From positions 496,001 to 560,000 of the forward strand of contig NZ_JASGBJ010000002.1 of NCBI RefSeq assembly GCF_030053415.1: a DNA stretch of 64,000 nt. The letters are read 5' to 3'. This DNA is from Marinobacter sp. CHS3-4 (GTDB lineage Bacteria; Pseudomonadota; Gammaproteobacteria; Pseudomonadales; Oleiphilaceae). Positions within the stretch are counted from its first letter, which is position 1; each line of letters opens with the position of its first letter. A program made the translations under genes and the position numbers. Positions 3,213 to 24,780 of this stretch are shown piece after piece. Under the pieces are notes generated by a model that saw only the letters and a program-made list of their open reading frames with translations, was not told where the DNA came from and did no database searches.

Positions 3213-5468
3213 TCAACGTGCAGTTGCCTTCTCCATTTTGGTCTCAAACAGATCAGCCAAAGGAACAGGCCGCCCCAAACCGAAGCCCTGGCCGTAATCC
3301 ACACCCAGATCCGCAAGCAGTTCTGCCACTCTCTCATTCTCGACGAACTCGGCGACCGTAGTCAGGCCCATTGACCTTGCAACGACACAAGTAGCACCGA
3401 CAATCTGCCTGTCGTCCTCATTGGTCTCGATCTGCTTCACGAACGCACCATCGATTTTTAACGTGTCAAAGCGAAACGTCTTGAGGTAATCAAAGGTTGC
3501 CAAGCCCGTTCCAAAATCATCCAGGGAGACACTGCACCCCATATCTCTCAGCTGGGCGGTCACAATCTCAGCCTCGTCGCGACTGCTAATTCGCTGGGTT
3601 TCCGTTACCTCAAAACCGATTTTGTCGAACGGCACCCCCGTATCCTGAAATGCCTCTTCGATACTGGAAACAATTTCCGTAGAGGACAGGCTTGTTCCCG
3701 CCAGATTAATAGAGCACTTTTGGGTTCGTGATAGCCAGTCAGGGTTCTCTGCAAGCAACCTCAGTGTCGTCCGGATCACCCAGAGATCAATCTGCTTCAT
3801 AAACCCGTAGGCTTCCGCAACGGGCAAGAAAACACCCGGGGAAACAAACTGACCGTCCGTGCCCCTTAATCGAAGCAATATTTCATAGGAAATGCCCTCT
3901 TCGGTATTCCTGAACGGCAGGATTGGCTGGGCAAACAAGACCAATCGTTCATCGGACAGAGCGTCCTTGAGCAATTCAAGCCGTTGCGTCAGACCAATGC
4001 GGCTCAGCGATACGGCCTCTGGGTCCTCAATCGTATGGATCCTTGGCAGATGGTCACGAGCCATCAAGGCAGCTTGCGTTGCTGCGCTCAAGTACTGGTT
4101 CGGGTCTTGCAAAGAACCATCCAGAGCGACCGCTCCGATAGAAACCCGAATCCTCGTCTGATGGTCCTCAACCGAGAACAGCTCTCCATCGAACCTTCGA
4201 TAAAGAAACTGCAGAAACTCAGGCAGTGAATGGCGACCATTCTCGGTAAACAGCAGGGAGTATATTCCGTTGCCTATTCTGGCAGGATCACAAGCAGGAC
4301 CTGCAGCCCCCATCAAACGCGCGGAAAACAGAGTCTCCATCTTTCGTCTCGCACGGAACCCCATCAAATCTTCCAGATGATCGAAGTCGAGGACTTCCAG
4401 GTATATTAGCCAGCTCGATGGATTGGATGTCTCTGCCGCTTTTTCCGTTTCAGGCACCCGGTCACGAATCAGATCAATAAACGCTCGATCGTTGTTCAGG
4501 CCAGACAGAAAATCGGTGCTGGCCTGCTGACGAAGCCTCTGGGTCAGTCCGTTTCGTAGATAGGTAATGGCAGCAATAATCTGCAAAAGCAAAACACTGC
4601 CTGCCAACAAGAGCAGTAACTGGACAACCTCATCGATTGTCGTCAAACGCGCGACTGGCCCGATTCCAAGACTTAAGAAGGCAACCGCAACGAAAGAGAC
4701 CAGTGGCAGAGCCAACGTAACTGTCGATGGATGAGCGGTGAGCACCAACCAACACAAGGTCGGAAAGACCAGGAACGAAAGTGCAAGGGTGTACGTCTGA
4801 TCCGCTGACGACGGCAGGGCAAAAAGAATAAGCGCCAGAGAAACCGCAATGCCGATACAGAATGCTGTCGAGGTCTTTTTAATATCCTCAGTCACATTTC
4901 GGAAAAAACGGGAGGGGTTCTCCAGAATAAAATAAGCGACGGGCGCCAAGAGAAAAATTGAGACAATTTCAAGCAACCAGTAGACAAGGAACACATCCTG
5001 CAGCTTAAAATCTCGAATTGACGAATCTCCCAACCAGAAAGCAAATGTTCCCAAGCTTGCAGAAACCGTTGCTGCCAGTGCACCCGCCTTCAGGTAAACC
5101 AACCGGTCTACGAGCTCGTTTTTGAAGCGGTTACCGGGCGCCTCCTGGCGTTGTAGGTACCAGAGCGCAAAGGCGATACCCGCTACTTGACTGACCGTCA
5201 GCGCGATAGACGCACCAACGGTTTGGTCTTGCGCAACGAGCAACCAGACGAACAGTAAGGGCCCGCAGGTCAGAACAACGGACCAGCGCAAAATGAGCCC
5301 CGCCCCCAGGATCAGACCGGTCGCTGGCCATAGAATGGACATTGATGGTTCATCAATGGAAAAAAACCGCGAAAGTTCAGCCAGGCAAACAACCACAGCT
5401 GAAAAAAGCAGTAGGGCTTTGGCCTGCTCCCAGTCGAGAGACCGCAATGAGACTAAACCTGAAGTCAT
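3213..5468 (-). CDS. MASE1-type membrane sensor with degenerate GGDEF and EAL c-di-GMP phosphodiesterase domains
   Basis: Predicted inner-membrane c-di-GMP phosphodiesterase of 751 residues. Residues 15-305 form a MASE1-like multi-helix region (SILWPATGL is typical). Residues 315-480 are a GGDEF fold in which the active-site loop reads IGNGI (399-403), so no cyclase activity is expected. Residues 490-740 are an EAL domain with the metal and substrate residues in place: E529 (EIL form of EAL), N588, E620 (EVTET), DDFGTG at 650-655, K671 (LKID), E707 and GQGF. The gene is divergent from the response-regulator operon that starts at 5689, with 220 bases between them, and forms the left flank of the light and chemosensory block. 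The ligand is unknown. Confidence 0.88.
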   Translation of the reverse strand: MTSGLVSLRSLDWEQAKALLLFSAVVVCLAELSRFFSIDEPSMSILWPATGLILGAGLILRWSVVLTCGPLLFVWLLVAQDQTVGASIALTVSQVAGIAFALWYLQRQEAPGNRFKNELVDRLVYLKAGALAATVSASLGTFAFWLGDSSIRDFKLQDVFLVYWLLEIVSIFLLAPVAYFILENPSRFFRNVTEDIKKTSTAFCIGIAVSLALILFALPSSADQTYTLALSFLVFPTLCWLVLTAHPSTVTLALPLVSFVAVAFLSLGIGPVARLTTIDEVVQLLLLLAGSVLLLQIIAAITYLRNGLTQRLRQQASTDFLSGLNNDRAFIDLIRDRVPETEKAAETSNPSSWLIYLEVLDFDHLEDLMGFRARRKMETLFSARLMGAAGPACDPARIGNGIYSLLFTENGRHSLPEFLQFLYRRFDGELFSVEDHQTRIRVSIGAVALDGSLQDPNQYLSAATQAALMARDHLPRIHTIEDPEAVSLSRIGLTQRLELLKDALSDERLVLFAQPILPFRNTEEGISYEILLRLRGTDGQFVSPGVFLPVAEAYGFMKQIDLWVIRTTLRLLAENPDWLSRTQKCSINLAGTSLSSTEIVSSIEEAFQDTGVPFDKIGFEVTETQRISSRDEAEIVTAQLRDMGCSVSLDDFGTGLATFDYLKTFRFDTLKIDGAFVKQIETNEDDRQIVGATCVVARSMGLTTVAEFVENERVAELLADLGVDYGQGFGLGRPVPLADLFETKMEKATAR

Positions 5469-5688
5469 CCGTTTGAATCCAATACTCTGTGTGCACTACA
5501 TTCGCGTAGCGTACTTGTTAAACCCTGTTCTTTCTTTACGCCACTTCTTTAAAAAAGGATGTTTCACAAGATTTATCGATTGGATGCCTTCGACACTTGC
5601 TTGCGTCAGTCGATGCGGTATGACCTCTGAAGCGGCTGATGGTATAGTCTTAAAATTATGTGGTTTCACCCCCTGAGGAGTCCTGCGG

Positions 5689-6138
5689 ATGCAGCCCGTA
5701 CCAATCGTTTTGGCCGAAGACGATGAAGACGATCAGATGATCGTCAGAAAGGCTTTCAAAAAGGCACGCTTCCGCTCTCCCCTCCAGATGGTCAGCGACG
5801 GTCAGGAGCTGATGCGCTATCTCCGGGCAGAAGGCGAATACAGCGACAGGCAGTCGTTCCCGATGCCAGGTCTGATCTTGCTCGATCTGAACATGCCTGT
5901 GATGAGTGGCGAGGAAGCTTTGGCTGAAATCAAAGCCGACAAAAACCTCAAGCACATTCCCGTCGTGATCTTGACGACAACGGATGATCAGACCGGCGTA
6001 AATCGTTGCTATGAATTGGGCGCGAGTACGTTCATCACCAAACCCGTGACGTTTTCCGGATTTCTTGAAGTTGTCAGTGAGCTTCAACTCTATTGGTTCA
6101 GTCTTGTGGATCTGCCCGATGACCAGAATGCCCAATGA
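5689..6138 (+). CDS. Rcp1-type single-domain response regulator
   Basis: Receiver-only protein of 149 residues. The acidic pocket is LAEDDEDD (8-15), the phospho-acceptor is D66 (LLDLNMP), the switch Thr lies in ILTTTDD, and the conserved Lys is K118 (ITKPV). The C-terminal helix runs SGFLEVVSELQLYWFSLVDLP. This long-tailed subtype is the usual partner of phytochrome-type histidine kinases (Rcp1, BphR). A strong GAGGAG ribosome-binding site precedes the ATG. It is first in a three-gene plus-strand operon that converges on the bacteriophytochrome gene, which makes it the likely phosphotransfer partner. That pairing is inference from family and position. Confidence 0.9.
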   Translation: MQPVPIVLAEDDEDDQMIVRKAFKKARFRSPLQMVSDGQELMRYLRAEGEYSDRQSFPMPGLILLDLNMPVMSGEEALAEIKADKNLKHIPVVILTTTDDQTGVNRCYELGASTFITKPVTFSGFLEVVSELQLYWFSLVDLPDDQNAQ

Positions 6139-7837
6139 AGTCCGGATACTGTTAATCGAGGACGATGAAGACGACTCGTTTCTGGTCGAACGCCAGCTAA
6201 AACGAATGACCCGGTTCCAGGCCAAAATCGAAACGGTCAGAGACCTTGATCGCGGCCTGGAGATTGCCCTGGATCAGAATTTTGACGCCGTATTCATCGA
6301 TTACTACTGGGGTGGCAAAACCGCTGACACAGTGATCGTGGAAGAGCGTTCCTTTCTCCGCTCGGTTCCTCTGGTCGTCATTACCTCCACCGACGATTTC
6401 GAGATTAATGAACGCGTGGTCGAGGCGGGCGCCTGGGATTTCATCGCAAAGGATGACCTTAATCCCAAGCTGCTTGAACGCACGATACTGCACGCTATCG
6501 AGCGCAAACGACACGAAAACGAGCTTCACAAACTGGTTCGTCACGACAGCCTGACGGGGTTGGGCAACCGATTGATGTTTGAGGAGCAGTTGGACAAAGC
6601 AACCAGCCGTGCAGATCGCCAATCATCACGCTGTGCGGTTATGGCACTGGACCTGGACGATTTCAAACAAGTCAACGACTCGTTAGGGCACGACGTGGGC
6701 GACATGTTGCTCAGGCTGGTGGCCGATCGTCTGGAACGAGGTTTGAGGCTGGAAGACACCCTGGCCCGTCTCGGGGGCGATGAATTCGCTATCCTTATTC
6801 AGGACGTCGAGAATTCTCGAGACCTCGAAACCATCGCTGACAAACTGCTCGCGTCTTTACGTGAGCCAACCCCGATTAAGGGCATCTCTGGAAAGGTGAC
6901 CGGTTCATTTGGTATTGCTCTATATCCAGATAATGCCAAATCCCCCCTGGAATTGATGCGTTACGCCGATATTGCGCTATACGCCTCAAAAGACAGGGGT
7001 TGCGACAGAGTGAGCCTGTTCAATGATCAGCTGGAAAAAGAGCTTCTCGGCAGTCTGGAATTGGAGCAAGAGCTGCGCAGCGCCTTAAACAGCGGTTCTT
7101 TAATTCCCTATTTTCAGCCCCGCTATGGCATTGATGACAACCACCTTTACGGCGTCGAAGTTCTGATGCGCTGGCAACATCCGTCACGGGGCACGCTGCT
7201 TCCGGGCGAATTTATGCCGGTCGCAGAACGTGCTGGCTTGATATTCGAGATGGACAGGTCACTGATCAAAAACACCCTGGAGTTGCTCTCGTCCTACGAT
7301 GCATTGCCCAGTGAAATACTTCCCTATCAAATCGCATTCAATATCACAGCGGCCCAACTGCTGGACGTTGATTTCCCGAAACAAATGCAAAAATTGGTCG
7401 GCAGCTTCAACCTTAACCCCGGACACGTAGAGTTCGAAATCGTCGAGAGCGTCCTGGTGGAGCGCCAGGCCCAAGAAACCCTTGCCGAGCTGAGAAACGC
7501 GGGTTTTGGCCTGGCCATCGATGATTTCGGCACTGGTTTTTCTTCCTTCTCATACCTTAAAGATTTACCGGTGACCGCGATAAAACTGGATCGGTCTTTT
7601 ATCAAGGACTTGAACGTCAGTACCGCTAACCACGCCATATGTGAAGCCATCGCGCACGTTGGCAAAAGACTTGGCTTACTGGTCATCGGCGAAGGGATTG
7701 AAACTGACTCGGAGCTGGAAGCTCTGTCAGAACTGGAAGTTGACTCAGTTCAGGGCTTTCTTTTCGCAAAGCCCATGAACGCAGCAGACTGGATCGCCAA
7801 GCAGCACCAATTCCGACAGGAGGCCAGGAATGTCTAA
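6119..7837 (+). CDS. Receiver-GGDEF-EAL c-di-GMP metabolic protein
   Basis: Soluble response regulator of 572 residues. The receiver covers about 1-125, with acceptor D61 (VFIDYYWGG). The GGDEF domain (about 135-300) has an intact GGDEF at 219-223 and an inhibitory I-site RxxD at R210-D213. The EAL domain (about 310-565) has E347 (EVL form), DDFGTG at 468-473, K489 and E525. Both activities are therefore possible. The ATG at 6119 (an alternative is 6128) overlaps the end of the preceding response-regulator gene by 20 bases, which points to translational coupling. The position suggests that phosphorylation by the phytochrome or the hybrid kinase changes its c-di-GMP output. Confidence 0.9.
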   Translation: MTRMPNEVRILLIEDDEDDSFLVERQLKRMTRFQAKIETVRDLDRGLEIALDQNFDAVFIDYYWGGKTADTVIVEERSFLRSVPLVVITSTDDFEINERVVEAGAWDFIAKDDLNPKLLERTILHAIERKRHENELHKLVRHDSLTGLGNRLMFEEQLDKATSRADRQSSRCAVMALDLDDFKQVNDSLGHDVGDMLLRLVADRLERGLRLEDTLARLGGDEFAILIQDVENSRDLETIADKLLASLREPTPIKGISGKVTGSFGIALYPDNAKSPLELMRYADIALYASKDRGCDRVSLFNDQLEKELLGSLELEQELRSALNSGSLIPYFQPRYGIDDNHLYGVEVLMRWQHPSRGTLLPGEFMPVAERAGLIFEMDRSLIKNTLELLSSYDALPSEILPYQIAFNITAAQLLDVDFPKQMQKLVGSFNLNPGHVEFEIVESVLVERQAQETLAELRNAGFGLAIDDFGTGFSSFSYLKDLPVTAIKLDRSFIKDLNVSTANHAICEAIAHVGKRLGLLVIGEGIETDSELEALSELEVDSVQGFLFAKPMNAADWIAKQHQFRQEARNV

Positions 7838-8300
7838 TAGCAGTGCCGCAATACTGGTTGGACGACACGAAAGACTGTCACGAGAAATCTGGGCAGGGTT
7901 CGTTCAATCAGGCCTTGTGGAGTTGGTACTAACGTTCAGAAGCGTCGATGATTTGCTTGAAAACACGCACACGGAGTCCAAGTCCATCGACGTTGATATA
8001 AAACTGATGTTTTTCCTGATTGAATCGATGGATGACCTCGGCACGCCGATCGATTTGAAGGTTCATCACCAGCTTTCCCGCGTACCATTGATTGCCTTTT
8101 ACACACCCGAAACCGAACTGACCCGGACTGACATCCAGACGCTTTATGACAGGCGGGTCAGCTCTGTCGTAAGGCTGCCTCTGCGATTCCAGGATCTAGG
8201 CCATCTGGTGCTGCAAATGGACCGCTACTGGGCTGTGGGAAAGTTGCCTCAGTGTGAACTATCGCTTCCAACAGAATACGTGTTCACTCCGAAAGATTGA
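7830..8300 (+). CDS. Degenerate receiver-like protein (pseudo-response regulator)
   Basis: Protein of 156 residues with no clear family of its own. Its C-terminal third (VVRLPLRFQDLGHLVLQMDRYW) lines up with the same region of the Rcp1-type regulator two genes upstream (ITKPVTFSGFLEVVSELQLYW). This points to a receiver fold of common descent. The acidic pair near the N-terminus is replaced by GRHER, the phospho-Asp position falls on hydrophobic residues (LMFFLIESMDD), and the conserved Lys is replaced by Arg-Leu. Phosphorylation is therefore not expected. The start ATG overlaps the previous stop by 8 bases. The 3' end overlaps the convergent phytochrome gene by 17 bases. It may act as a protein-interaction adaptor; that is inference. 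Confidence 0.75.
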   Translation: MSNSSAAILVGRHERLSREIWAGFVQSGLVELVLTFRSVDDLLENTHTESKSIDVDIKLMFFLIESMDDLGTPIDLKVHHQLSRVPLIAFYTPETELTRTDIQTLYDRRVSSVVRLPLRFQDLGHLVLQMDRYWAVGKLPQCELSLPTEYVFTPKD

Positions 8301-10500
8301 TCCGGACACTGAAGGTGCTGCCCTCTCCGGGCACCGAAGTAGCGGTGACGCTGGCACCCACTCTTTCTGCCGCTTTACGGACGATAGCCAGTCCAATACC
8401 TGACCCTGGGTAGCGTGACTTTGAATTCAGGCGCATGAATGGTTTGAAGATCGCCTCAGCCTGGTTGGCATCGAACCCGATACCCGAATCCTGAACGTTT
8501 ACCGTCCAGATTGTTTCGCTCTCATCGGAGTGCCCTTCTATGGTAATCGCGTTTTTCCTGTCGGGATGGCCATACTTGAGCGCATTTGATATCAGATTCT
8601 GAAATATCATACGGAGCAGAACCGAGGACGTTCTGGTCACCGGAAAACGTCCCTTTACGCTAATACTGAAATCCGAGTAGTTCTCTTGTTGCTCCACTAG
8701 CTCAATGCTTTTATCAATGGCTTGTCTCCAGTCGCATTCCGAGAACTCGTAATCCAGACGTCCAACTCTGGAATAGTTCAGAAGATCACTGACCAGGCCG
8801 CGCAGCCTGCTCGATGCCAGACCGACTCGCTTCAGATAATCCTGAATAGCCTCTGCGTCGGGGTTTTCTTCTGATATTTCTTCAGCCGCCATATCGGAAA
8901 ACGCTTCAATCTTTCGAAGCGGCTCCTGAAGATCATGAGAGGCGATGAAGGCAAAGTCCTCCAGATCCCTGTTCGATTGGGCAAGGCTTTCTGAAAGTCT
9001 TTGAAGCCGCTCTAACTGACGAAGCGCCAGTTTTTGAAGGGACAACAATAGTTCATCGGCCGAATCCAGTTCCCAGGCCTTCCATTTGCGGGCACTCCCG
9101 CGCCGGGTTTCGGTCCATCGCTCGAACGAGGCCCTCGGGTTGAGTGGGTCTTCCGATGACTTTTGGTTTTTACCGGCCCAGGTCACCTCCTGCAGCTCTT
9201 CCTGACGGGTCCACAAACAAAGAACGTCGTAATTCTGTGAGGGCGTCAGCGCCAGAATACCGGCCGCCAGCTTTGCATGGCCTTCGAATAATTCCTCATT
9301 GCATCGGCTGCGAGAGAGTATGGACTGTCCACTGGATTTCAGCTCATTTCGGACCTCTTTCGCCAGAAGCAGGTATTGCGAGTCCGAGGGGCCATGGCCC
9401 ACAGAATGCACTTGTGAACCGTTTATAACCGCAAAAGCATCGGCGTCAAAAAGCTTCTGGAAGTCGTGTGCCGCGTTGGCGATGGTGGGCACCAGCTCAT
9501 CATTCTTCAGACAGCGTTCCAGAACATCGCTCTGGTAGAGTCTCCGGCGCAGACGCTCTTCCATCACCTCTGCATCCTCGACCAACCGCAGACACAGCGA
9601 CAACACATCGCCAACAAGCTTTGCCGCCAGACGCGCGTTGACGGGCACGTATCGTGGACGCCTGTTATGACAGGCAACCAGCCCCCAGAGTTTGCCATCG
9701 CGTATGAGAGAGATCGACATGGATGCGGCAACACCCATATTGCGGAGATACTGCAGATGGATGGGCGATACGGCGCGAAGCGCACAGTCCGTCAAATCCG
9801 GGTTCATATCCTGAGGCTGGCCAGACAGGCTCGTAATGGGAATGTTGGTGGCGTCTACGTCCGCGATCATGCGGATCTCATTTTCCAGATACAACGCCCG
9901 CGCCTGTTCGGGAATGTCCGTTGCCGGAAAATGGAGGCCAAGAAAACGGGTCATACCCGAATCAAGATTCTCGGCCACAACCTCACCATGCCAGTCCTCG
10001 GCGAAACGGTACACCATCACACGATCGAAGCCGGTGATGCTCCTGACAGCGCTCGCGGCCGTATTCAGAAGCTGCTCGACGGAATGTGAGGATTTAACCT
10101 CAGAAATCAATATATTGAGGTCATTTGCGGTAGTGGTTGACGAACCATCATCGGGCTCAGCAGACAACAGAATCCGCGATCCCCGCTGACTTACCGTGAA
10201 CAGGTGACCGCCCTGTACGAAATTTTTCGACAAGTCATTCGGTTCACTCAGCGCTGCCCTTACTGACTCGAGCAGACTTGCCGGGAGATGGCCGGTGCCA
10301 TCGATAGCGGCTTCACTCTGACCAACGACAGCAGCCAGCGCTTGCTCGGCGTTTTCACTGTACGAACAGACTGTTAAATCCTCTGCATCGAGAAACACCA
10401 CAAAACCATTGGGCTGAATCGACCCTGGCGTTCGTATAGGTTCGTCAGCGCAGTTGGTGAAATCAAATTGGTCTGAAAATCTGTCAGTCACATCGCGCAC
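8284..10500 (-). CDS. bphP: Bacteriophytochrome histidine kinase (PAS-GAF-PHY-HisKA-HATPase)
   Basis: Red/far-red photoreceptor kinase of 738 residues. All chromophore-site hallmarks are visible: biliverdin-attaching Cys17 (FTNCADEPIRTPGSIQPNG), the PATDIP loop with D195, H248 (SPIHLQYLRNMGV), H278 (WGLVACH) and the PHY tongue motif PRASF at 455-459. The kinase has phospho-acceptor H522 (SHDLQEPLRK), an N-box NALKYG, DSGIGFD and GSGIGLAIV. No C-terminal receiver is fused. The start is GTG at 10500 or at 10491; the latter has AGGTG seven bases upstream. The gene is convergent with the response-regulator operon on its left and 56 bases divergent from the hybrid kinase on its right. A heme oxygenase that could supply biliverdin is encoded about 14 kb away. 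Confidence 0.95.
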   Translation of the reverse strand: MRDVTDRFSDQFDFTNCADEPIRTPGSIQPNGFVVFLDAEDLTVCSYSENAEQALAAVVGQSEAAIDGTGHLPASLLESVRAALSEPNDLSKNFVQGGHLFTVSQRGSRILLSAEPDDGSSTTTANDLNILISEVKSSHSVEQLLNTAASAVRSITGFDRVMVYRFAEDWHGEVVAENLDSGMTRFLGLHFPATDIPEQARALYLENEIRMIADVDATNIPITSLSGQPQDMNPDLTDCALRAVSPIHLQYLRNMGVAASMSISLIRDGKLWGLVACHNRRPRYVPVNARLAAKLVGDVLSLCLRLVEDAEVMEERLRRRLYQSDVLERCLKNDELVPTIANAAHDFQKLFDADAFAVINGSQVHSVGHGPSDSQYLLLAKEVRNELKSSGQSILSRSRCNEELFEGHAKLAAGILALTPSQNYDVLCLWTRQEELQEVTWAGKNQKSSEDPLNPRASFERWTETRRGSARKWKAWELDSADELLLSLQKLALRQLERLQRLSESLAQSNRDLEDFAFIASHDLQEPLRKIEAFSDMAAEEISEENPDAEAIQDYLKRVGLASSRLRGLVSDLLNYSRVGRLDYEFSECDWRQAIDKSIELVEQQENYSDFSISVKGRFPVTRTSSVLLRMIFQNLISNALKYGHPDRKNAITIEGHSDESETIWTVNVQDSGIGFDANQAEAIFKPFMRLNSKSRYPGSGIGLAIVRKAAERVGASVTATSVPGEGSTFSVRINLSE

Positions 10501-15097: not shown

Positions 15098-15943
15098 TTA
15101 GCGAGACCTCACGGGCGAAAAAACGGTTTTACCCAGCGATTTGAACAGGTCACCACCGGAGATCAGGGATTCTGAATGGCCCGCAAAAAAAAGCCCTTTC
15201 TCATTGAGTAAACTGTGGAAGCGCTTGAGCAATGCGGCCTGGGTCTGATTCTCGAAGTAAATAAACACGTTTCGGCAAAAGATAAAATCCACCGGCTCCT
15301 CCAACGGCCAATTCCGGTCAAGCAGATTGACATGTTGAAAGGTCACCAGATTCCGCACTTCGTTCTTCAACCGGACCCGCCCCTGATTTTTGCCGACGCC
15401 CCGCAAAAAAAATCGTTTCAGGAACGCCTTTGGCAACTTGGCCACCCGGTCAAGATCGTACATCGCCGCACTGGCGGTCTCCAACGCTCTGGTGTCCACA
15501 TCGGTGGCAATCACCTCAATGCCCTGCCGGGCACTTCCAAGCGCCTCAATCGCCGTCATGGCAATACTGTACGGCTCTTCGCCCGTGGAAGCAGCACAGC
15601 ACCATATCCTGATCCTGTTCTGATTCCTGAAATGGGTTTTCAGGTGGGTCTGAAGGGTGTCGAAGTGGTGGCTTTCTCGAAAAAACGCGGTCAGATTGGT
15701 GGTCAGCGCATTGATGAACTGTTGCCATTCCGGATGGTCGGGATCGTCCAATTGATCCAGATAAACACCCACCGAACGGATACCTGTGGCCCTGAGACGT
15801 CTGGCAAGGCGGCTATAGACCATTTCCTGCTTGTTGTCCCCAAGATGAATCCCGACCCGGGCGTGAATCAGTTTTTGAACCCTGGAAAACTCCCGTCGCG
15901 AGTAGTCAAACTCTCTGCGCTTGCCGGAACTCGTCGTGTCCAA
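15098..15943 (-). CDS. cheR: Chemotaxis protein methyltransferase
   Basis: CheR of 281 residues, the S-adenosylmethionine-dependent methylase of MCP glutamates. The N-terminal helical domain (10-85) and the SAM-binding domain are both complete. Motif I reads CCAASTGEEPYS (115-126), ATDVD follows at the adenosine-binding position, and FIFCRNVFIYF is the typical later motif. The gene directly follows cheW (15943/15944) and abuts cheD. The beta-subdomain that binds receptor pentapeptides is probably present, given the tether on the neighbouring MCP. That last point is inference. Confidence 0.95.
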   Translation of the reverse strand: MDTTSSGKRREFDYSRREFSRVQKLIHARVGIHLGDNKQEMVYSRLARRLRATGIRSVGVYLDQLDDPDHPEWQQFINALTTNLTAFFRESHHFDTLQTHLKTHFRNQNRIRIWCCAASTGEEPYSIAMTAIEALGSARQGIEVIATDVDTRALETASAAMYDLDRVAKLPKAFLKRFFLRGVGKNQGRVRLKNEVRNLVTFQHVNLLDRNWPLEEPVDFIFCRNVFIYFENQTQAALLKRFHSLLNEKGLFFAGHSESLISGGDLFKSLGKTVFSPVRSR

Positions 15944-16435
15944 TCAACCTTGCTCCCCATCCAGGTCCTCAAGCGCCATTGAAGGATCGGCCATGAGCCC
16001 GTCAATATCCAGTACAATCACCATCGTCTCGTCAATATCCGCAAGTCCGCGAATGTAACGGGTATCCACGGACGCGCTGAATGTCGGCGAGGGTCGCACA
16101 TCCTGATCCGACAACCGAAGTACGTCCGAAACGCTATCAACCACGATACCAACGATGCGATGCTCGAGGTTCAGAATGATCATGATGGTGAATTCGTCGT
16201 ACGTCAGCTCGCCGATCCCAAACCGTGCCCTCAAATCAATGATCGGCACGATGGTGCCACGAAGATTGACCACGCCTTTGACGAATTCGGGCGCCTGGGC
16301 AATCCGCGTAACCCCACCATAGCCTTGAATTTCCTGAACTTTCAGGATATCTATCGCGTAGAACTCGTCACCCAGGCAAAAGGTAAGATACTCACTACCG
16401 GCGCCGGCTATTTCGTCTTGAGCAATGTCTGCCAT
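15944..16435 (-). CDS. cheW: Chemotaxis coupling protein
   Basis: CheW adaptor of 163 residues linking CheA to chemoreceptors. The sequence opens with a short acidic leader, followed by the CheW SH3-like fold: YLTFCLGDEFYAIDILKVQEI, then the core VVNLRGTIVPIIDLRARFG, which is a near-perfect family signature. An ATG at 16435 lies one base after the MCP stop, with GGGAAGAA upstream. An in-frame extension to 16591 would run deep into the MCP gene in another frame, and it has an arginine-rich composition unlike CheW, so it is rejected. Confidence 0.95.
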   Translation of the reverse strand: MADIAQDEIAGAGSEYLTFCLGDEFYAIDILKVQEIQGYGGVTRIAQAPEFVKGVVNLRGTIVPIIDLRARFGIGELTYDEFTIMIILNLEHRIVGIVVDSVSDVLRLSDQDVRPSPTFSASVDTRYIRGLADIDETMVIVLDIDGLMADPSMALEDLDGEQG

Positions 16436-16436: not shown

Positions 16437-18134
16437 TCAGAATTCTTCCCAGTCATCATCGCTCTCCCCACCCGTGGATTTAGCAGGCGTTGACGGCTTC
16501 TCGGATGTTTTTGCCTTCGAAGCCGGGTTGCTTGAAGCAGCAGACGTCTTGGGGGTTTTTGCCTGCCCGGCGGGTTTACGCGCCACGTCATTCGCGCTGA
16601 GTCTGAACTTGCTTACCGAGGACTCAAGCTCCTCAGCCTGAGACTGAAGTGACTCAGCTGCCGCGGCGGATTCTTCCACCAGGGCGGCATTTTGCTGAGT
16701 TACCTGGTCCATTTCAGACACGGCCTGATTGATCTGCTCAATGCCTGCGCTTTGCTCGTCAGAAGCGGCCGTAATTTCGCCGATGATATCCGTCACCTTC
16801 TTGATGCTGACAACGATTTCGTCCATCGCCGTTCCGGCCTTGTCAGCAAGCTCGCTGCCCGTCGAAATATTTTCAACCGAGGACTCAATGAGGGATTTAA
16901 TGTCCTTGGCCGCCGAGGCACTTCGTTGCGCAAGGCTTCGTACCTCTGTCGCAACCACGGCAAAACCCCGACCCTGCTCACCGGCACGCGCAGCCTCAAC
17001 CGCCGCGTTCAACGCCAGGATATTGGTCTGGAAGGCAATGCCGTCAATCACCGAGATGATTTCTGACATCTTGTTGGACCCTTCGCGAATTTCAGCCATG
17101 CGTTTCACAACGCTCTCGACCACGTCGCCACCTTTATCGGCGTTTTCACTCGCTGCTTTCGACAGCGAATTGGCCTGCCGGGCATTGTCAGCGTTCTGCT
17201 TCACGGTGGTCGTCAACTCTTCCATGCTCGCAGCGGTCTCTTCGAGGCTCGAGGCCTGCTCTTCTGTACGCTGTGATAGGTCGGTGTTGCCGACGGCAAT
17301 TTCACTCGACGCTGTATTGATGGTATCCACACCTTCGCGAATGGAACCGACGATCTGCTTCAGACTCTCGCGCATGTCAGCCAGCGCATTGATCAATCGC
17401 CCTACTTCGTCTTTCCGATCCGATCTCAATTGGCCATCCAGCTCGCCCCTGGCGACGGCCCTGGCTGCTTCCACAGCCTCCGACATCGGCACAGAGATGC
17501 CCCGACCGATGATGAACGCGATCGCGATACCCGAAATAACGGCGATCACCATCAGCGATGTGATCAACGTCTGGCTAAAGTCATAGATTGCGTCGGCTTC
17601 CTCGGTTGCTTCCCGCACCAGAGCCTCGATGTCAGACCTAGCGGATTCCAGTTCCCGGCGCAATTCGTCCCCTAATGGGTCCACATCGGTATCCAGCGCG
17701 GAGGCCAGACGGGAGCTGGTCCAACCGGACTCACCGTTTTCTATGAATGCCGCAACGCCACGATTGAAGGCATTCACTGCAGAAGAAACGCCGTCTATCG
17801 CCTCTCTCTCATCGAGACGCTCAAGGACCATTTCCAAGGATTCGAGTCGGTTTATCATGCTATCGGTTTCCGACTCAATATTCCGAACAACTCGCGACTG
17901 CTCCTGATCGCCGAACCTGACGATGTAAGAGCGAACCAGTCTCGACTTTTGCTCCGCGTTCAAAGCCAGGTCGTTGACGAGCTGTATCGCCCTGCTCTCC
18001 TGATCAACAATTTTATGAAGATTCGCATTGACCTGCTTGAGCTCTATCAGGCCGACAACACCCACTGCGATCAGCAAAGCAAGCACAATGGCATAGCCAA
18101 GGCCAAGCTTGGTGCCGATATTCAGGTTTTTCAT
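16437..18134 (-). CDS. Methyl-accepting chemotaxis protein with C-terminal DWEEF tether
   Basis: Transmembrane chemoreceptor of 565 residues. TM1 is about 11-31 and TM2 about 189-211. The periplasmic part between them looks like a four-helix bundle. HAMP follows (212-265), then the long cytoplasmic coiled coil. The hairpin tip contains [20 protein letters not shown]. After a flexible Ala/Ser/Lys linker the protein ends [11 protein letters not shown]. The last five residues match the xWxxF pentapeptide that recruits CheR in other bacteria, including the GWEEF tail of P. aeruginosa Aer2/McpB. Its ATG overlaps the cheA stop by 4 bases, and cheW begins one base after its own stop. The ligand is unknown. 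Confidence 0.95.
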
Positions 18135-20239
18135 AAATTCTCCTCAGATGTTTCGACCAGATCAGAACCGATGAGAGAGGCATCCGGACGGCTCAGTAGC
18201 GTGCTATCTGCAACCAGCTGAGCGACGTCGATAATGAAGGCAACCGAGCCGTCCCCCATTACTGTTGCGCCCGAGAACCCCGGGACACGTCGGTAATTGG
18301 TTTCCAGGTTTTTGATCACGATCTGTTGCTGACCGATCAGTTCATCCACCAGCAAGCCGATCTGTCGCCCCTCACTCTCAACAATAATGGCGAGCAATGA
18401 ACCGCCCACCTGCGTATTTTTAAAACTGTCTTGCGATGCCGAGGCCAATGTATACAGAGGAACAAATTCGCCATGCCTCCGAATCACGCAGCCATCCCCC
18501 TGCACGTAAAAAACGTCTCCCGAACTCAGCTGCAGAGACTCAACAACGTTGGATAACGGAATGACCAACCGTTGATCCGCGAAGCGCAGCACCATACCGT
18601 CGGTGATTGCCAGTGTCAGCGGCAGTCGAACGGTAAACACAGACCCCTCACCAGGAGTGCTTTTAACATCAATGCGGCCACCCAGCTCTTTAATGTTCCG
18701 TTTGACCACATCCATACCAACCCCACGACCGGAAACGTCCGTCACTTCTGCTGCCGTTGAGAATCCCGGTGCAAAGATCAGATTGAGAATCTGATCCTCA
18801 TCCATCTCCTCATTTGCATCCAGACCGTTCTCCTGGGCTTTTTTAAGGACCTTCTCACGATTGATTCCAGCGCCATCATCGCTGATGGAAATGACGATAT
18901 CGCCGCCTTCGTGGGATGCCGCCATGACGACCTGTCCCTTCTGGGGTTTCTGGGCCTCTAATCGCTTTTCCGGGGATTCGATCCCATGATCAATACTGTT
19001 ACGAACAAGGTGGGTCAGGGGGTCAGCGAGCTTTTCAATCAGGCTCTTGTCCAGCTCAGCCTCCTCGCCCAGTGTGACCAGGTCTATTTCTTTTCCTAGC
19101 TTGCGCGACAGGTCACGAACAACTCTTGGAAACCGGCTGAACAGAACTTTAACCGGCAACAGCCGTATCGAGAGGACAGATTCCTGCAATTCCCTGGCCG
19201 TTCTTTCCAGCGTTTCAAGGCTCGCGAGGTGCTGCTCATTCTCGACGGCGTCCAGCGATTCCGCAGTCTCACGGAGCATGGCCTGGGTAATGACCAGCTC
19301 ACTGATCTGGTTCACCAGCTGATCGACCTTTTCCAGGGACACCCTAAGCGAGCCAGAACTCTCTCTGGCGCGCTTTGGACTGGCCGATGGCTTGGTCTCG
19401 GTTTTTTGTGATGGGGCGGCAGCTCCGTCGGAAACGGAAGCCTGCTTGGCGGGGCGATTCAACCAGCCGAACTTGCCGTCGGGGTCGGCCTGAGGATCAC
19501 CGGCGGCGGCTACATTGGCGCTTTCATCGGGCCTCGTCGCATCTTTTGTTTCGCCCGTTTCGCCCGTTTCGCCCTCGCTAAGAAGCTCGTCGAAATACTG
19601 GTGATAGCCATCGCTTGTTCCCCCGCCCTGACCGCTCTCTGCGTCGTCGGAATCAAACAGGCCATAGGCGCCGTCGTCTGCTGAATCGGCGATTTCTTCT
19701 TCGGAGACATTGCTTGACGGCTCGTCAAAAAGCCCGAAGCCGGGATCCTCTTCATCCGCACCAGAATCGTCGGTGTCTGAATCGTCAAACAGGCCAAAGC
19801 TCTCATCTACCTCGGCATTGCCGGAAGCATCCTCCGGCGCCGACTCCTCGGTGGCGGGGGCCACGGAACGATTCTCGCTTTCAAGCTGACCAACCAGGGC
19901 ATTGTCGGCGGGGGGGTTGTCTTCGCCGTCTTCGAGTTTTTCCACAAGAGCACGGATTTCATCGACGCCGGCCAAAACAAGATCAATGCGGTCGTCCGTC
20001 AAATCGGCGGTACCCTTTCGGATTTTGTCCAGGAGGGTTTCCAGATGATGCGTAAAATCCGATAGCGTTCGAAAGCCAAACATCCCGGCTGAGCCCTTGA
20101 TGGAGTGGGCCGCTCTGAAAACGCCATCGAGGGCTTCCGAATTTTTGCGGTCACCATCAAGAACCAGCAGCTCATCCTCTATGGTCTGGAGGTGCTCTGC
20201 CGCTTCCTCGAAAAAAACCGCTTTAAAATCTTCGGACAT
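18131..20239 (-). CDS. cheA: Chemotaxis histidine kinase CheA with repeated GLFD motifs in the linker
   Basis: CheA of 702 residues. The Hpt domain P1 has H45 ([12 protein letters not shown]). The P2 position is occupied by a long acidic, low-complexity linker (about 105-300) instead of a recognisable CheY-binding domain. The linker holds three copies of an aromatic-GLFD motif, at 148-152, 168-172 and 192-196, plus a YFDELL and a GETGETGET stretch. The dimerisation domain P3 follows ([17 protein letters not shown]). The ATPase P4 has [12 protein letters not shown] and DDGAGI. P5 is the CheW-like regulatory domain. CheY starts 10 bases upstream, and the MCP overlaps its end. The repeats could be docking motifs for CheY; that is inference. 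Confidence 0.95.
19548..19574 (-). repeat. Three tandem 9-bp repeats inside cheA
   Basis: The 9-base unit GTTTCGCCC (plus-strand reading) occurs three times in a row, encoding Gly-Glu-Thr three times in the CheA linker. A repeat unit that is a multiple of three allows length change without a frameshift. Confidence 0.85.
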
Positions 20240-20249
20240 TTAAAGGCCC

Positions 20250-20615
20250 CTAGCCAATCACTTTTTTGACGACTTCCAACAGCTTGTTCGGCTCAAAAGG
20301 CTTAACCAGCCAACCTGTCGCCCCTGCTGCCTTGCCTTTTGACTTCATATCTTCGCTCGCTTCTGTCGTCAGAATGAGAATCGGCGTTCGACTGTGGCGG
20401 GCCTCTGCCCTCAACGCCTTGGTGAGACTGATCCCGTCCAGTCTCGGCATATTCTGATCCGTAATCACCAGGTCCAGCGCTCTGGTTTTGGCCGAGTCCA
20501 GCGCCGCCTGGCCGTCGGGTGCCTCGACCACCTCATAGCCACTGCCTTTCAAAGCGTGCCCGACCATCTGACGAATAGACACGGAATCGTCAACGATCAT
20601 TATGGTTTTCGACAT
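20250..20615 (-). CDS. cheY: CheY-type response regulator
   Basis: Single-domain receiver of 121 residues. The acidic pair D9-D10 (IVDDS), acceptor D53 (VITDQNMP), the switch Thr in LILTTEAS and K104 (LVKPF) are all intact. The gene is 10 bases upstream of cheA. It is the only stand-alone CheY in the che operon and the most likely target of its CheA. Whether it acts on the flagellar motor is not evident: no fliM, fliN or cheZ is near, and CheY2 of the similar P. aeruginosa Che2 system is not thought to control swimming. Confidence 0.93.
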   Translation of the reverse strand: MSKTIMIVDDSVSIRQMVGHALKGSGYEVVEAPDGQAALDSAKTRALDLVITDQNMPRLDGISLTKALRAEARHSRTPILILTTEASEDMKSKGKAAGATGWLVKPFEPNKLLEVVKKVIG

Positions 20616-20629
20616 GTTATGGTCATCCT

Positions 20630-22444
20630 TTAATTTTCTGGTTCAATTTCGCTTATTTTTTGCTGTGGCTGACCGGATTCACCAGCCATTATCACAATAC
20701 GGAACTCCGACGTTGCCCCGCCGTCGTGAAAGGTCAGCCGGTCAGCCAACCGCCTGACCAGCTTGATGCCTCTTCCCGAAGGCACGGGCAAACTGCTGGC
20801 CTCAGTCGCATTTTCGTCTTTGTATCCAAACCCTTCTCCGGTGTCGCTCACCGTCACCGACAGCGCATAATTGCGACCCGATCGATCCAGATTGGCCCGA
20901 ATAAAAACGCCGCCGTAGTCCAATTGACTCAAACGCTTCTGTCGCTCTTCGAAGTATTCAGCGAATCCTTCTGGGTTGGATTTCAGTGAAGAGTCCATCC
21001 CGAGAACGCCATGATCAATAGCATTATTCAGCAGTTCAGTGATGCAAACATGTGCTTTGTCAGCCTTTTCACCGGTAACGCCCATCCTGCCTATGACGTT
21101 GTTGACAATGGGCGCCAACTCGGCGTCTTTGAGCGCGTCACCACGAACGCCAAGCGCGAAATACCAGCCACCGGTAGCCATGGCGGTGAGATCTATATCC
21201 GAATTGACCACTGTGATGTCCGAATCATCGTCTTCAGAGATGACGGAATCCTCGCCTTCAAACTCTATGGATCCCAGAGGCAAGATCAGCAAAGAGCGAT
21301 CATCAGCGGCGCTTTCAGCGGCCGTAAATTCATCGAGTGCGCTGCCAATTGCACGAATGAGGTCTCTGGATCTGTCGTGACAGGTCAGCACCCGTTCCAG
21401 TCCTTTCTGACCGAACATATTGCCGGAAGGATCTTCGGACTCTACAACCCCGTCCGTGCACGCCACGATGGTCTGATGTTTCTGGTAAGACGCGCCGGTC
21501 ACTTTGGCGTCGAATCGAGGAGCGTCAAGAATACCCAAGGGAGGGTGTGTAGCCGGGAACGTCTTCGCGATCTGGCGGCTTTCATTGTCTAGAAGGTAAA
21601 CCTGAGGGCACCCTCCGTTCCATATTTCGAGTCGCTGGGTATGTGGTTCAAACATCATCACCGCAGCGGCAACAAATCGTTCTCTTGGCAAACTGGAGCG
21701 CAGCCGTGTATTCAGTTCACGAACAATGGTCTCTACCGAGTAACCCTCCCTGGACAGTCTGGAGAAGGTTTCAACGGCGGGAATCAGGGTGATGGCAGCC
21801 GGCAGTCCGTGCCCCGTCGCATCGGCAACCATGCTGTACAGTCGATGACTGGGGCTACGCATCGATACAATGAGGTCACCACTGAACTCGCCAGCAGGGT
21901 CGATGATGTATTTTGCATCCAGAGACGTTGATTCCGAAGAATGCAGCAAACGATCCAGTAACTGTCTTGCAAGATCATTATCGGACTGGCTCTTGTTGTA
22001 GTAATCCTCCAGGCGACGGCTTTTTTCCTGAACTTCGTTTTGCAACGCGGAGGCACGCTGTGCCGCACGCACATAGGCCCGCAACAAAGCAAATTGCACG
22101 GGCTTGGTCAGGTAGTAGTCGGCCCCGATATCCAGCCCCTCGACCTGTGACCGCTCTTCCGAGTTTGCGCTGACCATCATGATCGGCACCCACCGCGTCA
22201 GCTGCTTCTTGATTCGTGCGCAGCAGCTAAGCCCGTCAATATGGGGCATTTTGACGTCGAGCACGAACAGACCAAAGTCTTTGTCTTTTTCAAACAGTTC
22301 AAGCGCGTGGGCACCATCTTCCGCAAGCACGACGGTGTGCCCTTCACTTTTAAGGAAGTTTCCGAGGACGTTACGCATCACCGGATCGTCATCTGCGATC
22401 AGGATATGCAACGAAGAGGTTAATGCTCCCTGGTTCTCGACCAT
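20630..22444 (-). CDS. Response regulator with PP2C phosphatase and anti-sigma-type kinase domains (HsbR/CrsR-like)
   Basis: Three-domain partner-switching regulator of 604 residues from the ATG at 22444; a TTG at 22468 is an alternative. The receiver (about 10-125) has D63 (FVLDVKMP). A coiled linker leads to a SpoIIE/RsbU-type PP2C domain with DATGHG at 208-213, ACTDGVVE and DDRSLLIL as metal-binding motifs. The C-terminal HATPase of the RsbW type has the N-box ELLNNAIDHG at 471-480 and DTGEGFG. This architecture is that of HsbR in Pseudomonas and CrsR in Shewanella, where the protein phosphorylates and dephosphorylates a STAS partner. The STAS gene lies 13 bases upstream. Input could come from the neighbouring CheA or the hybrid kinase Hpt domain. 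Confidence 0.9.
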   Translation of the reverse strand: MVENQGALTSSLHILIADDDPVMRNVLGNFLKSEGHTVVLAEDGAHALELFEKDKDFGLFVLDVKMPHIDGLSCCARIKKQLTRWVPIMMVSANSEERSQVEGLDIGADYYLTKPVQFALLRAYVRAAQRASALQNEVQEKSRRLEDYYNKSQSDNDLARQLLDRLLHSSESTSLDAKYIIDPAGEFSGDLIVSMRSPSHRLYSMVADATGHGLPAAITLIPAVETFSRLSREGYSVETIVRELNTRLRSSLPRERFVAAAVMMFEPHTQRLEIWNGGCPQVYLLDNESRQIAKTFPATHPPLGILDAPRFDAKVTGASYQKHQTIVACTDGVVESEDPSGNMFGQKGLERVLTCHDRSRDLIRAIGSALDEFTAAESAADDRSLLILPLGSIEFEGEDSVISEDDDSDITVVNSDIDLTAMATGGWYFALGVRGDALKDAELAPIVNNVIGRMGVTGEKADKAHVCITELLNNAIDHGVLGMDSSLKSNPEGFAEYFEERQKRLSQLDYGGVFIRANLDRSGRNYALSVTVSDTGEGFGYKDENATEASSLPVPSGRGIKLVRRLADRLTFHDGGATSEFRIVIMAGESGQPQQKISEIEPEN

Positions 22445-22457
22445 CGGCGGGTTCGCC

Positions 22458-22778
22458 CTAATCCTCAATCACGAACATACGTTCAAAATGAGCGACGTCC
22501 AGGATTTCCCTGACCACGCCCTTTGCACGACGAATGGTAACGGGCTGCCCATGCTCCTTTGCCCGGTCCAGGAGGACCAGAAGTATTCCCAGCGCGGCAC
22601 TGTCAAGATAATCAAGGCCACCGAAATCAAGCACAATTTCCTTCACCGAATCTTTATTCAGTACGCGGGCCTGCTCTTCTTTGAAGGCCGCGTATTGGCT
22701 AAAGTCGAATCGCCCGCTCAGTGAAAGTGTTGCCACTCCATCCTGAAGACTGTGTTTCACATCAAACTCTGGGCCCAC
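22458..22778 (-). CDS. STAS-domain anti-sigma factor antagonist
   Basis: Single STAS domain of 106 residues, similar in type to SpoIIAA, RsbV and HsbA. The phosphorylatable serine is S60 in LDYLDSAALGILLVLL, the family's conserved site. It is the predicted substrate of the PP2C and kinase domains encoded by the next gene. In the Pseudomonas HsbA system the unphosphorylated or phosphorylated form binds FlgM or a diguanylate cyclase. No flgM is found in this window, so the downstream target is unknown. The gene starts 11 bases after the MCP-like gene upstream, within the che operon. Confidence 0.92.
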   Translation of the reverse strand: MGPEFDVKHSLQDGVATLSLSGRFDFSQYAAFKEEQARVLNKDSVKEIVLDFGGLDYLDSAALGILLVLLDRAKEHGQPVTIRRAKGVVREILDVAHFERMFVIED

Positions 22779-22789
22779 AATGGCTCTCC

Positions 22790-24037
22790 TCAGAATAAAT
22801 CAACGCTACCTTCGTTAAGATCTTTTTGCTGAACCGCACTATCCCTGATCCCGGCATAAGCCTGTCTCAGCGAATCAAGATCCGCCTTCAATTTCAGCGA
22901 ACGCTCCTCGTCAGGAAGGTCCGCCACGTGGGCCATGTTCTCCAGATGCCCGTTGACGAGCAGGATACGCTCGTCAACTCTTTGCAAGAGCTGCGTCACC
23001 ATGTCCTGAAACTGCATCTTGGTGACAATTTCCGACACGTCATGTTTGACGTCGTCAGCAACGGAAGCCAACTGAAACATACCCTCGGAACGCGCCTTAT
23101 CCAGCTCCTGGACCTCTTCCATCAACCGATCAACCGACTTTTTCGACTGTAACGAGAAGTTCATGTCTTGCGACGCCATGTCATCGATTGATTTAGTGGC
23201 CCGCTGAACAAGGTCCGATGCATTGGCAACCCGCGAACGGATTTTTTCATTAAATTCTTCTGACCGATTCGATAGAGCCTGTACTTCCGTCGCGACCACC
23301 GAAAAACCGCGACCTGCATCCCCGGCCCTGGCGGCCTCAATCGCCGCGTTGATGGCCAGCAAATTGGTCTGCCCTGTGATCCCGTTCATTTCATCCAGCA
23401 TGGATTGAATAGCTTCTGTCTCTCCGGAGATCTCCTGCATCACGTCCACAAGTGCTACAGACTTACGGCTTACCTCCACAATGGTGTCAACGAATTCCGA
23501 CATGATCTTGCCGACGTCTTCAACCATGTGCTGGTAGGTTACTCCGTCTTCTCCTTCAGCCTCCGCCTCTTCGGCATCGTTTTTAATAAAGGGCTCGACG
23601 ACGACCTGCTGCCTTTGTGTGTGGTTTTCCAAACTGACGAACAGCTCGCCAAGCCTTGGACCCGCGTCGGCAAGCAATTCATTGGCTTGACGGGTTTCAG
23701 ACATAATGTCGTTGAGGGCATCGGTTTGAAACTGGATGACTTTTGCCCAATCTGATGAGATATCATTATGAACATTTTCCTTGGCATCTTGGCGACTCGT
23801 CATGCATTCAATGACCTTCCGTCGGTGCCAACGATAGAAAAGCATTAAGAAAACACCGGCCAGAACGATCAATGAGACCTGCACTACTGCAGAGTTGATA
23901 AAAAATGGAATTGCGACAAGGAAAACAAAAACGACTGACAGGGGTATGACGAAATAAGCCCAGTGGCTACCCACAACAGGTTTCATGTTACCGGATGGGT
24001 CTCCGGGATGGTCTAAATGCTGCTTTTCCAAAATCAT
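22790..24037 (-). CDS. Membrane MCP-like signalling protein without a sensor domain
   Basis: Protein of 415 residues. Two closely spaced hydrophobic helices (about 27-47 and 51-70) are separated by only a few residues, so there is no periplasmic sensor domain. A coiled-coil cytoplasmic region follows, with a chemoreceptor-like tip: [34 protein letters not shown]. No HAMP domain and no xWxxF tail are seen; it ends EGSVDLF. The C-terminal part after the tip (WRNxVQELDK-like, then [15 protein letters not shown]) resembles MCP-like proteins that often sit beside partner-switch or CheV genes. It is the first gene after the heme oxygenase and could sense through an internal partner. Confidence 0.85.
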
Positions 24038-24189
24038 TCGGCCTTTTTACTTGTTGACGCACGCCATATGCCTACCAATTCCGTAACTTACGAAGAAAGG
24101 CGCACAAAGATCACATCGTTTTAGAATAGCAGGCAAAGGAGTTTTTGCTATCTAAGGGTTTGAACTGGAGAGAGATCGATCGGCTTGTG

Positions 24190-24780
24190 TCAGTCAAGCG
24201 CCTTCCGGAACTCCTCGAAGGCCATAGTGGCGGACTGAAAAAGACTTGGAATCTCGGTCTGGTCTAGAGGCAAATCATCCAATTGAATCCGAAACTGTTT
24301 CCAAAAATCAGTCACATTCTGGTGAGTAGCGGTGAAAAAGCCAGTGGGTGCCCCGGGTACATTCTCGGTAACAGACGCCGCGATAACACGGCTGCCAAGC
24401 TGCGCACCAAAAAAAACATACAATCCCCCCAATAACTGAGGCACGTCCACGAAGCCGAATCCGGCTCTATCAGAGGGCAGGCTGGTCACGCCCAGAACGC
24501 GCAGATCGTCCACCAGGGCATGACGGCGAGGCTTAAAGTTCGCGTCGCAAAATGCCAAAAACGAGGTTTGTTCGGGGGTTGGTTGGAACCTCGAGATGTC
24601 TTTCAGACTATTCTCAACCGCAGATTCGAGCGGTTTCCACGCCCGGTACATGGCCTGCAGGCCGAGACGGTACTGGTCAATTGTGGAAGATCTTGCGACG
24701 AGACTACGCAGCATCGGGTGCTGATCCAGAGCCTGATGAGCACTCCTGGTTTCTTTCTTCAGACGCTCAGACAGCTCCAT
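24190..24780 (-). CDS. bphO: Biliverdin-producing heme oxygenase (BphO type)
   Basis: Heme oxygenase of 196 residues, which opens heme to biliverdin, iron and CO. The proximal heme ligand is H15 in LKKETRSAHQALD. The distal helix glycine segment reads GGLYVFFGAQLGSRVI (118-133), matching the family pattern GxLYVxxGxxLG. Biliverdin is the chromophore attached to Cys17 of the phytochrome encoded at 8284-10500. In many bacteria bphO sits directly beside bphP; here eleven genes intervene, yet both are in the same signalling block. It is transcribed toward the che operon, 152 bases before the MCP-like gene. A role limited to iron acquisition is possible but no uptake genes are near. Confidence 0.88.
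   Translation of the reverse strand: MELSERLKKETRSAHQALDQHPMLRSLVARSSTIDQYRLGLQAMYRAWKPLESAVENSLKDISRFQPTPEQTSFLAFCDANFKPRRHALVDDLRVLGVTSLPSDRAGFGFVDVPQLLGGLYVFFGAQLGSRVIAASVTENVPGAPTGFFTATHQNVTDFWKQFRIQLDDLPLDQTEIPSLFQSATMAFEEFRKALD

Follow-up and report, generated by a model that had tools for sequence, protein, structure and literature searches.

To our knowledge, the inputs of alternative chemosensory systems and the outputs of bacteriophytochromes in heterotrophic bacteria are open questions. We examined a 21.6-kb block of signalling genes in the marine bacterium Marinobacter sp. CHS3-4 in which one hybrid kinase has for neighbours a light sensor, enzymes of cyclic diguanylate (c-di-GMP) metabolism, a chemosensory array and a partner switch of the sigma type. 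On the chemosensory side, the closest described system is the che1 locus of Shewanella oneidensis (SO_2117 to SO_2126), ten genes in one transcription unit with a gene for a methyl-accepting chemotaxis protein (MCP) first; its partner switch, CrsR-CrsA, controls RpoS, and the role ascribed to Che1 is RpoS control, with Che3 serving chemotaxis (PMC9855816, in the accessible part of its text). Pseudomonas aeruginosa HsbR has the same three domains as CrsR, and the available portion of PMC6482189 describes its receiver as the target of HptB, which is fed by three hybrid kinases. On the light side, a PAS-GAF-PHY histidine kinase, an Rcp1-type regulator and a heme oxygenase occur together in the bacteriophytochrome-Rcp1 pairs represented by the Deinococcus response regulator (PDB 6xvu) and cyanobacterial Rcp1 (PDB 1i3c), and phytochrome-activated diguanylate cyclases are described in the extract of PMC9587094.

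The block lies in a 64,000-nucleotide window, by which we mean the whole stretch analysed (contig NZ_JASGBJ010000002.1 of assembly GCF_030053415.1, positions 496,001-560,000 of the forward strand), from a genome of 3.72 Mb. Between a tRNA-Val gene and an epimerase gene (3213-24780) there are 17 protein genes, all of them signalling genes except for one heme oxygenase. Pfam analysis and gene order divide them into a left phytochrome module, a hinge hybrid kinase and a right ten-gene module comprising a chemosensory set and a partner switch. We estimate a probability of about 50% that the block is one cohesive signalling cassette, in which two modules are joined by the hybrid kinase, the joined state is ancestral and the halves converge on c-di-GMP and the partner switch. 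The features are as follows.

3106..3182, forward strand: tRNA-Val(gac), the left border and an island insertion site in relatives (ARAGORN)
3213..5468, reverse strand: MASE1-degenerate GGDEF-EAL protein, likely a c-di-GMP phosphodiesterase (Pfam; motifs by reading)
5689..6138, forward strand: Rcp1-type single-domain response regulator (NCBIfam receiver matches)
6128..7837, forward strand: REC-GGDEF-EAL protein, ATG at 6119 or 6128, both enzyme motifs intact by reading (Pfam)
7830..8300, forward strand: degenerate receiver, phospho-acceptor Asp absent by reading (structure model)
8284..10500, reverse strand: bacteriophytochrome (BphP) histidine kinase, PAS-GAF-PHY-HisKA-HATPase (Pfam; alignment; PDB relatives)
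10557..13427, forward strand: hinge hybrid kinase, GAF-PAS-HisKA-HATPase-REC-Hpt (Pfam; occurrence; alignment)
13424..14476, reverse strand: CheB (Pfam)
14480..15097, reverse strand: CheD (Pfam)
15098..15943, reverse strand: CheR (Pfam)
15944..16435, reverse strand: CheW (Pfam; the longest open reading frame [ORF] extends to 16591, and the ATG at 16435 follows the MCP stop)
16437..18134, reverse strand: membrane MCP, 4HB-HAMP-signalling domain, C terminus DDDWEEF (Pfam; sequence)
18131..20239, reverse strand: CheA (Pfam)
20250..20615, reverse strand: CheY (Pfam)
20630..22468, reverse strand: CrsR/HsbR-like REC-PP2C-GHKL kinase/anti-sigma protein (Pfam; sequence)
22458..22778, reverse strand: CrsA/HsbA-like STAS antagonist, DSA phospho-site by reading (Pfam; sequence)
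22790..24037, reverse strand: second MCP-type protein, with N-terminal hydrophobic stretches and no known sensor domain by Pfam
24190..24780, reverse strand: heme oxygenase (Pfam; own-genome search)

These assignments bear out the families and gene order given by a first-pass annotation of the same DNA (Pfam, an NCBIfam receiver match, and ORF order and strands). Every gene it named is present, and its list lacked the second MCP-type gene (22790-24037). The protein it had called an EAL phosphodiesterase (3213-5468) does contain EAL, and its fuller architecture is MASE1-(degenerate GGDEF)-EAL. The proposal that the block is a unit free of unrelated genes also held up: its borders are sharp, and in two other species the hybrid kinase accompanies one half each.

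The protein searches scored 7 to 10 candidates per genome in the genus and 2 in the order and class, so that absence means no match among those candidates. Of 124 genus genomes, three had a match for the hybrid kinase at E<=1e-120: our own, Marinobacter daqiaonensis CGMCC 1.9167 (G016; locus L068) and G122. M. daqiaonensis carries the BphP half with the hybrid kinase and has no such che set; G122 carries the che half with the hybrid kinase and has no BphP. Neither has both, and the order and orientation of the window block are those of the G016 left half plus the G122 right half around the hybrid kinase. The same partition was seen in the individual proteins. The BphP clade comprised only our genome and G016 (54% identity across its full length; elsewhere the photosensory part matched at 38% or less), and the CheA clade comprised only our genome and G122 (62%), followed by G037 and G120 at 50% over part of the protein. 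Seven further non-identical che sets of the genus had CheA proteins at 41-46% (G070, G110, G023, G017, G061, G018 and G026). The CrsR-like protein exceeded 50% in our genome and G122 only, and the other 114 match rows, which include a second copy in each of the two, fell at 27-32%. The window hybrid kinase is 44-45% identical to both of its counterparts, which are 66% identical to each other.

The G016 and G122 half-blocks occupy one common genomic site, and the window block occupies another. On the left of the common site are shared genes for a histidine kinase (60%), an Rcp1 (67%) and a PAS-GGDEF-EAL protein (75%), followed by a stretch with MCP and HD-GYP genes that is 74% identical at the DNA level; the right-flank genes are 59-92% identical. 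From the HD-GYP gene to the hybrid kinase, G016 has about 5.3 kb encoding REC-GGDEF-EAL, the degenerate receiver, heme oxygenase and, on the opposite strand, BphP, and G122 has about 200 bases with no trace of BphP. Between the hybrid kinase and the ADH gene that both share, G122 has the ten-gene operon and G016 only 48 bases; the G016 kinase ends at its REC-Hpt linker. G016 also retains a 22-amino-acid Rcp1 tail before REC-GGDEF-EAL (73% identity; E 5e-10 in a 500-base stretch). Gene content, order and orientation, the common site and the kinase truncation are direct observations. Since the two half-blocks share a site and G016 has both a truncated kinase and a remnant of Rcp1, we infer that the joined block was probably ancestral to the three known carriers, with each half lost once, one loss per relative. 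Chance adjacency without shared history was rejected, as the same hinge, order and orientation recur at two genomic sites. Beside their half-blocks, G016 and G122 have a second set of genes, HK-Rcp1-REC/PAS-GGDEF-EAL (L033 5144-11254 and L064 2197-8595), whose kinase part is 42-44% like that of BphP; the wiring is similar but the sensor differs (PAS repeats in G016).

All ten genes of the right module are on the reverse strand with spacings of at most 14 bases, compared with overlaps or at most 22 bases in S. oneidensis che1. The two have the same ten functions (CheA, CheY, CheW, CheR, CheD, CheB, two MCPs, REC-PP2C-GHKL and STAS) in one run, a likeness that rests on published gene content in the accessible text of PMC9855816 and on Pfam architecture. 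That locus also corrects one point of the first-pass annotation, which had treated the Che2-like set and CrsR/CrsA as separate precedents; this is wrong for che1 and CrsR/CrsA because both belong to one published ten-gene locus (same source, same part). The block has REC, PP2C/SpoIIE, GHKL and a STAS partner, the features that mark HsbR/CrsR regulators, and by eye the CrsR-like protein retains the receiver Asp, the PP2C acidic residues and the GHKL boxes. From Pfam and the available description (PMC6482189), P. aeruginosa HsbR-HsbA shares this REC-PP2C-kinase/anti-sigma architecture with a STAS partner, and its input from hybrid kinases through an Hpt protein is the wiring we propose for the block, except that HptB is a separate protein and the Hpt of the block is fused to the hybrid kinase. 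The module differs from che1, as far as that locus is described in the portion cited, in several respects. Its membrane MCP has a 4HB_MCP_1-HAMP-MCPsignal architecture without PAS, so that the PAS-heme Aer2 chemoreceptor of che1 does not occur in the block (Pfam); the MCP precedes CheW; CheB has the hybrid kinase and phytochrome module as its neighbours; and there is a heme oxygenase upstream. Because the MCP lacks the Aer2 features, we regard the module as che1/Crs type by content and not as a che1 orthologue.

In the left module, Rcp1, REC-GGDEF-EAL and the degenerate receiver form an overlapping run on the forward strand, with which BphP converges through a 17-base overlap. Inspection by eye found the GGDEF motif of the MASE1-EAL protein ruined and its EAL intact-looking, and REC-GGDEF-EAL retaining its RxxD I-site, GGDEF and ExLxR. 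We have assumed the roles of the GGDEF/EAL, receiver, PP2C, GHKL and STAS motifs read in the block proteins. The degenerate receiver (7830-8300) had no Pfam or NCBIfam match. An AlphaFold2 model built on a two-sequence alignment (mean predicted local distance difference test score 68; predicted template modelling [TM] score 0.64) was closest to receiver structures, and ranks 1 to 3 were phytochrome response regulators (6xvu twice and RcpA, 1k68; E 2e-4 to 4e-4, TM 0.56-0.58), which, with the missing Asp, agrees with the first-pass assignment. This protein is 56% conserved in M. daqiaonensis, and an adaptor family is possible.

BphP, the sole PHY protein found in the window genome, matched PDB entries 8uph and 9ys3 over residues 11-732 and 15-732 (E ~1e-104). 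It has an N-terminal cysteine, C17, and a PRASF tongue, and alignment places a Cys and PRHSF in the G016 protein; we take C17 to be the biliverdin (chromophore) cysteine and PRxSF to be the tongue motif. By domain set, Cys and tongue the protein is assigned as a bacteriophytochrome, with a predicted red/far-red photocycle. The heme oxygenase, for which no second copy was found in the genome, lies beyond the far end of the che operon from BphP, 152 bases upstream of the second MCP-type gene. It had no PDB match at E<=0.01 and is likely to make biliverdin for BphP. Six full-length BphP kinases from three other families (32-35% identity) were examined, and all six adjoin a gene for an Rcp1-like protein, which supports signalling from BphP to Rcp1. 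In contrast to the known bacteriophytochrome-Rcp1 pairs, Rcp1 in the block is not placed after BphP and instead heads a second operon, with REC-GGDEF-EAL and the degenerate receiver.

The block exactly fills a variable site of the core genome, as its borders are EamA and tRNA-Val on the left and the NDP-sugar epimerase on the right (followed by purC and NlpB- and DapA-type genes), and the distance between them varies across the genus. EamA and epimerase were on one contig in 31 genus genomes, our own included, 1-37 kb apart in 30 and 463 kb apart in one, and on separate contigs in two more; these counts leave aside three genomes from outside the genus (G124, separate contigs; G127, about 70 kb; G128, about 630 kb). 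tRNA-Val(gac) sits between the two genes in 18 of 19 relatives examined, G049 being the exception. A second copy of its 3' end (45-46 bases, 87-100% identity) was present in G019, G122 and G013, at loci L262, L265 and L268. Phage integrases were found at the site in G013 and G122, and none was found among the three proteins scanned in G019. The site of the block is thus a tRNA-Val island hotspot. We rejected a plain integrase island, since no integrase occurs among the 17 genes (Pfam/NCBIfam) and no tRNA 3'-end repeat at the far border (the longest exact tRNA-derived match past 3183 is 13 bases, in tRNA-Lys genes). A plasmid origin was likewise without support: the hybrid kinase had no plasmid match at E<=1e-100, and in 63 plasmid records no BphP match reached 60% identity, the ten listed being at 33-35%. 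Base composition (guanine plus cytosine 53.0% in the block, 54.4% to its right and 57.3% in the 3 kb to its left) is of no use as a marker. Gene spacing inside the block runs from -155, taking the listed ORF ends, up to 220 bases.

Phytochromes and che sets elsewhere follow other arrangements. PHY proteins were found in 26 of 124 genus genomes, and we retrieved flanks for the 23 of these that remain besides our own and G016 (G090 was left out). In 22 of the 24 regions from these 23 genomes, a GGDEF domain follows PHY on the same strand (G104 judged by PHY position); the two that depart from this are G076, which lies at a contig end, and G011. The fusion was checked by Pfam in G030 (L200 8955-11066) and G116 (L206 8719-10875). 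These common phytochromes of the genus resemble the phytochrome-activated diguanylate cyclases of PMC9587094 (extract), which like the block tie a red-light sensor to c-di-GMP; there PHY is followed by GGDEF, whereas the block has a kinase with separate regulators. No full-length hybrid kinase or ten-gene set was seen in the 24 regions (about 10 kb on each side where the contig allows). The G030 and G116 phytochromes are a few kilobases from a CheR gene and a CheV-type gene (CheW-REC, L206 702-1631).

In wider samples, covering 390 genomes of the order and 369 of the class, BphP matches outside the genus reached at most 35% and 32%, respectively. We also inspected 27 che loci outside our own genome, 10 from the genus and 17 from the order (12 of 13 near full-length matches, G373 being left out, and 5 taken from the other 74 non-own genomes that had a match). 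A full-length REC-PP2C-GHKL match was present at five (G122, G417, G496, G316 and G295) and a partial one in G263. At three loci of one genus in another family (G333, G440 and G273; L216, L217 and L227), a PHY-type match lies about 10 kb from the che cluster; GGDEF follows PHY in G333 and G440, the G273 stretch ends first, and no CrsR-like gene was seen at these three. A scan of genome contigs for the BphP pair returned five loci, of which M. daqiaonensis (52%) alone belongs to this clade (others, 23-34%), which is weak evidence of rarity given the narrow patterns and the possible omission of records near the window genome. A phytochrome kinase joined via a hybrid kinase to a che1/Crs-type locus was seen nowhere else among the loci examined. 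No title or abstract start in the literature covered, which lacks most subscription journals, described such a joint. The chemosensory set with its partner switch is already known as one locus, and the joint with a phytochrome kinase is the unusual part.

We propose the following circuit, in which we infer all phosphotransfers, all targets and the ancestral state. BphP, loaded with biliverdin from the heme oxygenase, likely senses red/far-red light and likely phosphorylates Rcp1; BphP or Rcp1 could plausibly act on the receiver of REC-GGDEF-EAL and so change c-di-GMP, with the degenerate receiver as a putative phosphorylation-independent adaptor. The MCP array and CheA would act on CheY and, plausibly, on the CrsR-like receiver. 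By analogy with HptB and HsbR, phosphate from the hybrid kinase may plausibly pass through its own REC and Hpt to that same receiver. The PP2C/kinase parts of the CrsR-like protein would then set STAS phosphorylation, freeing or holding a target, for which sigma-S is the leading, though speculative, candidate. Since both modules and the hinge would feed these outputs, light and chemosensory signals could meet at c-di-GMP and the partner switch; that light reaches the switch is speculative. The stronger idea of a transferable decision module, in which phytochrome, cytosolic hybrid kinase and chemoreceptor array converge on a CrsR-like switch so that red/far-red light would directly gate a sigma-S-type stress response and c-di-GMP, seems doubtful to us. 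The two half-block relatives serve as natural controls. Because the hybrid kinase joins the halves and stays with one half in each relative, a light-to-stress-response circuit could be tested by simple gene removals. Should the halves communicate, the block would allow a direct test of whether light controls the general stress response via a chemosensory partner switch; should they not, it stands as a clear caution against inferring circuits from gene neighbourhoods.

Several observations weigh against a cohesive cassette. Both halves are present in only 1 of 3 hybrid-kinase carriers, and no phytochrome kinase was found in the fetched stretches of the 27 che loci. The hybrid kinase, divergent from BphP across 56 bases, runs tail to tail with CheB. 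Transcription across both halves is unsupported, because promoter and terminator signals did not exceed shuffled sequence (9 versus a mean of 10.1, and 21 versus 21.6). The heme oxygenase may have a separate history, as it is placed differently from that of G016 and only 34% like it. The direction of deletion rests on three loci, and gains are possible. It is possible, though less likely than not, that two independent systems are simply neighbours, BphP-Rcp1-c-di-GMP and che1/Crs each acting alone and the hybrid kinase serving one of them, gathered in a tolerant island site since signalling genes are often laterally gained. The halves do live apart in G016 and G122, and the site is a hotspot by its tRNA-Val, tRNA repeats, integrases and variable length. 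Other phytochromes and che sets of the genus were seen apart as well, and such separation is half of the outcome that the first-pass annotation had named as contrary to its proposal. However, the recurrence of hinge gene, order and orientation at two genomic sites, the cut of the G016 kinase at its REC-Hpt linker and the position of the sole heme oxygenase beyond the che operon all fit poorly with independence, and the shared site, truncated kinase and Rcp1 remnant are better explained by losses from a block once joined than by chance co-localisation.

The same loci can be told as gains, with an ancestral hybrid-kinase locus to which one lineage added the BphP cassette and another the che1/Crs operon before the window lineage recombined both. 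This history is compatible with the functional reading, and the lack of any BphP trace in the ~200 bases of G122 that correspond to 5.3 kb in G016 counts in its favour. We nevertheless hold it to be distinctly unlikely, since several events would have had to hit the same places in matching orientation, the missing Hpt and leftover Rcp1 tail of G016 look like deletions, and the window kinase falls outside the G016-G122 pair yet has both halves. A motility output, in which BphP would bias swimming by way of the flagellar motor, as phototaxis, and the partner switch would be incidental, has a precedent of sorts in R. centenum Ppr, for which the accessible part of PMC5812497 gives evidence of interaction with chemotaxis proteins and reports a mutation without obvious effect on phototaxis. 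The block has no flagellar gene (Pfam), the division of labour between Che1 and Che3 in Shewanella (PMC9855816, part cited above) points elsewhere, and the genome has another, presumably flagellar CheA at C2:808103, with an HsbR-like paralogue about 18 kb from it; we therefore consider this output very unlikely. Compared with these histories and outputs, the cohesive cassette with one loss in each relative remains our preferred reading.

A kinase of the hinge type was also seen in G496 (L109 1784-6715), where genes for a REC-PP2C-GHKL protein, a FIST-domain protein and an HK-REC-Hpt hybrid kinase stand directly before the che genes on the same strand. This arrangement is an independent case of an HK-REC-Hpt kinase beside a partner switch.

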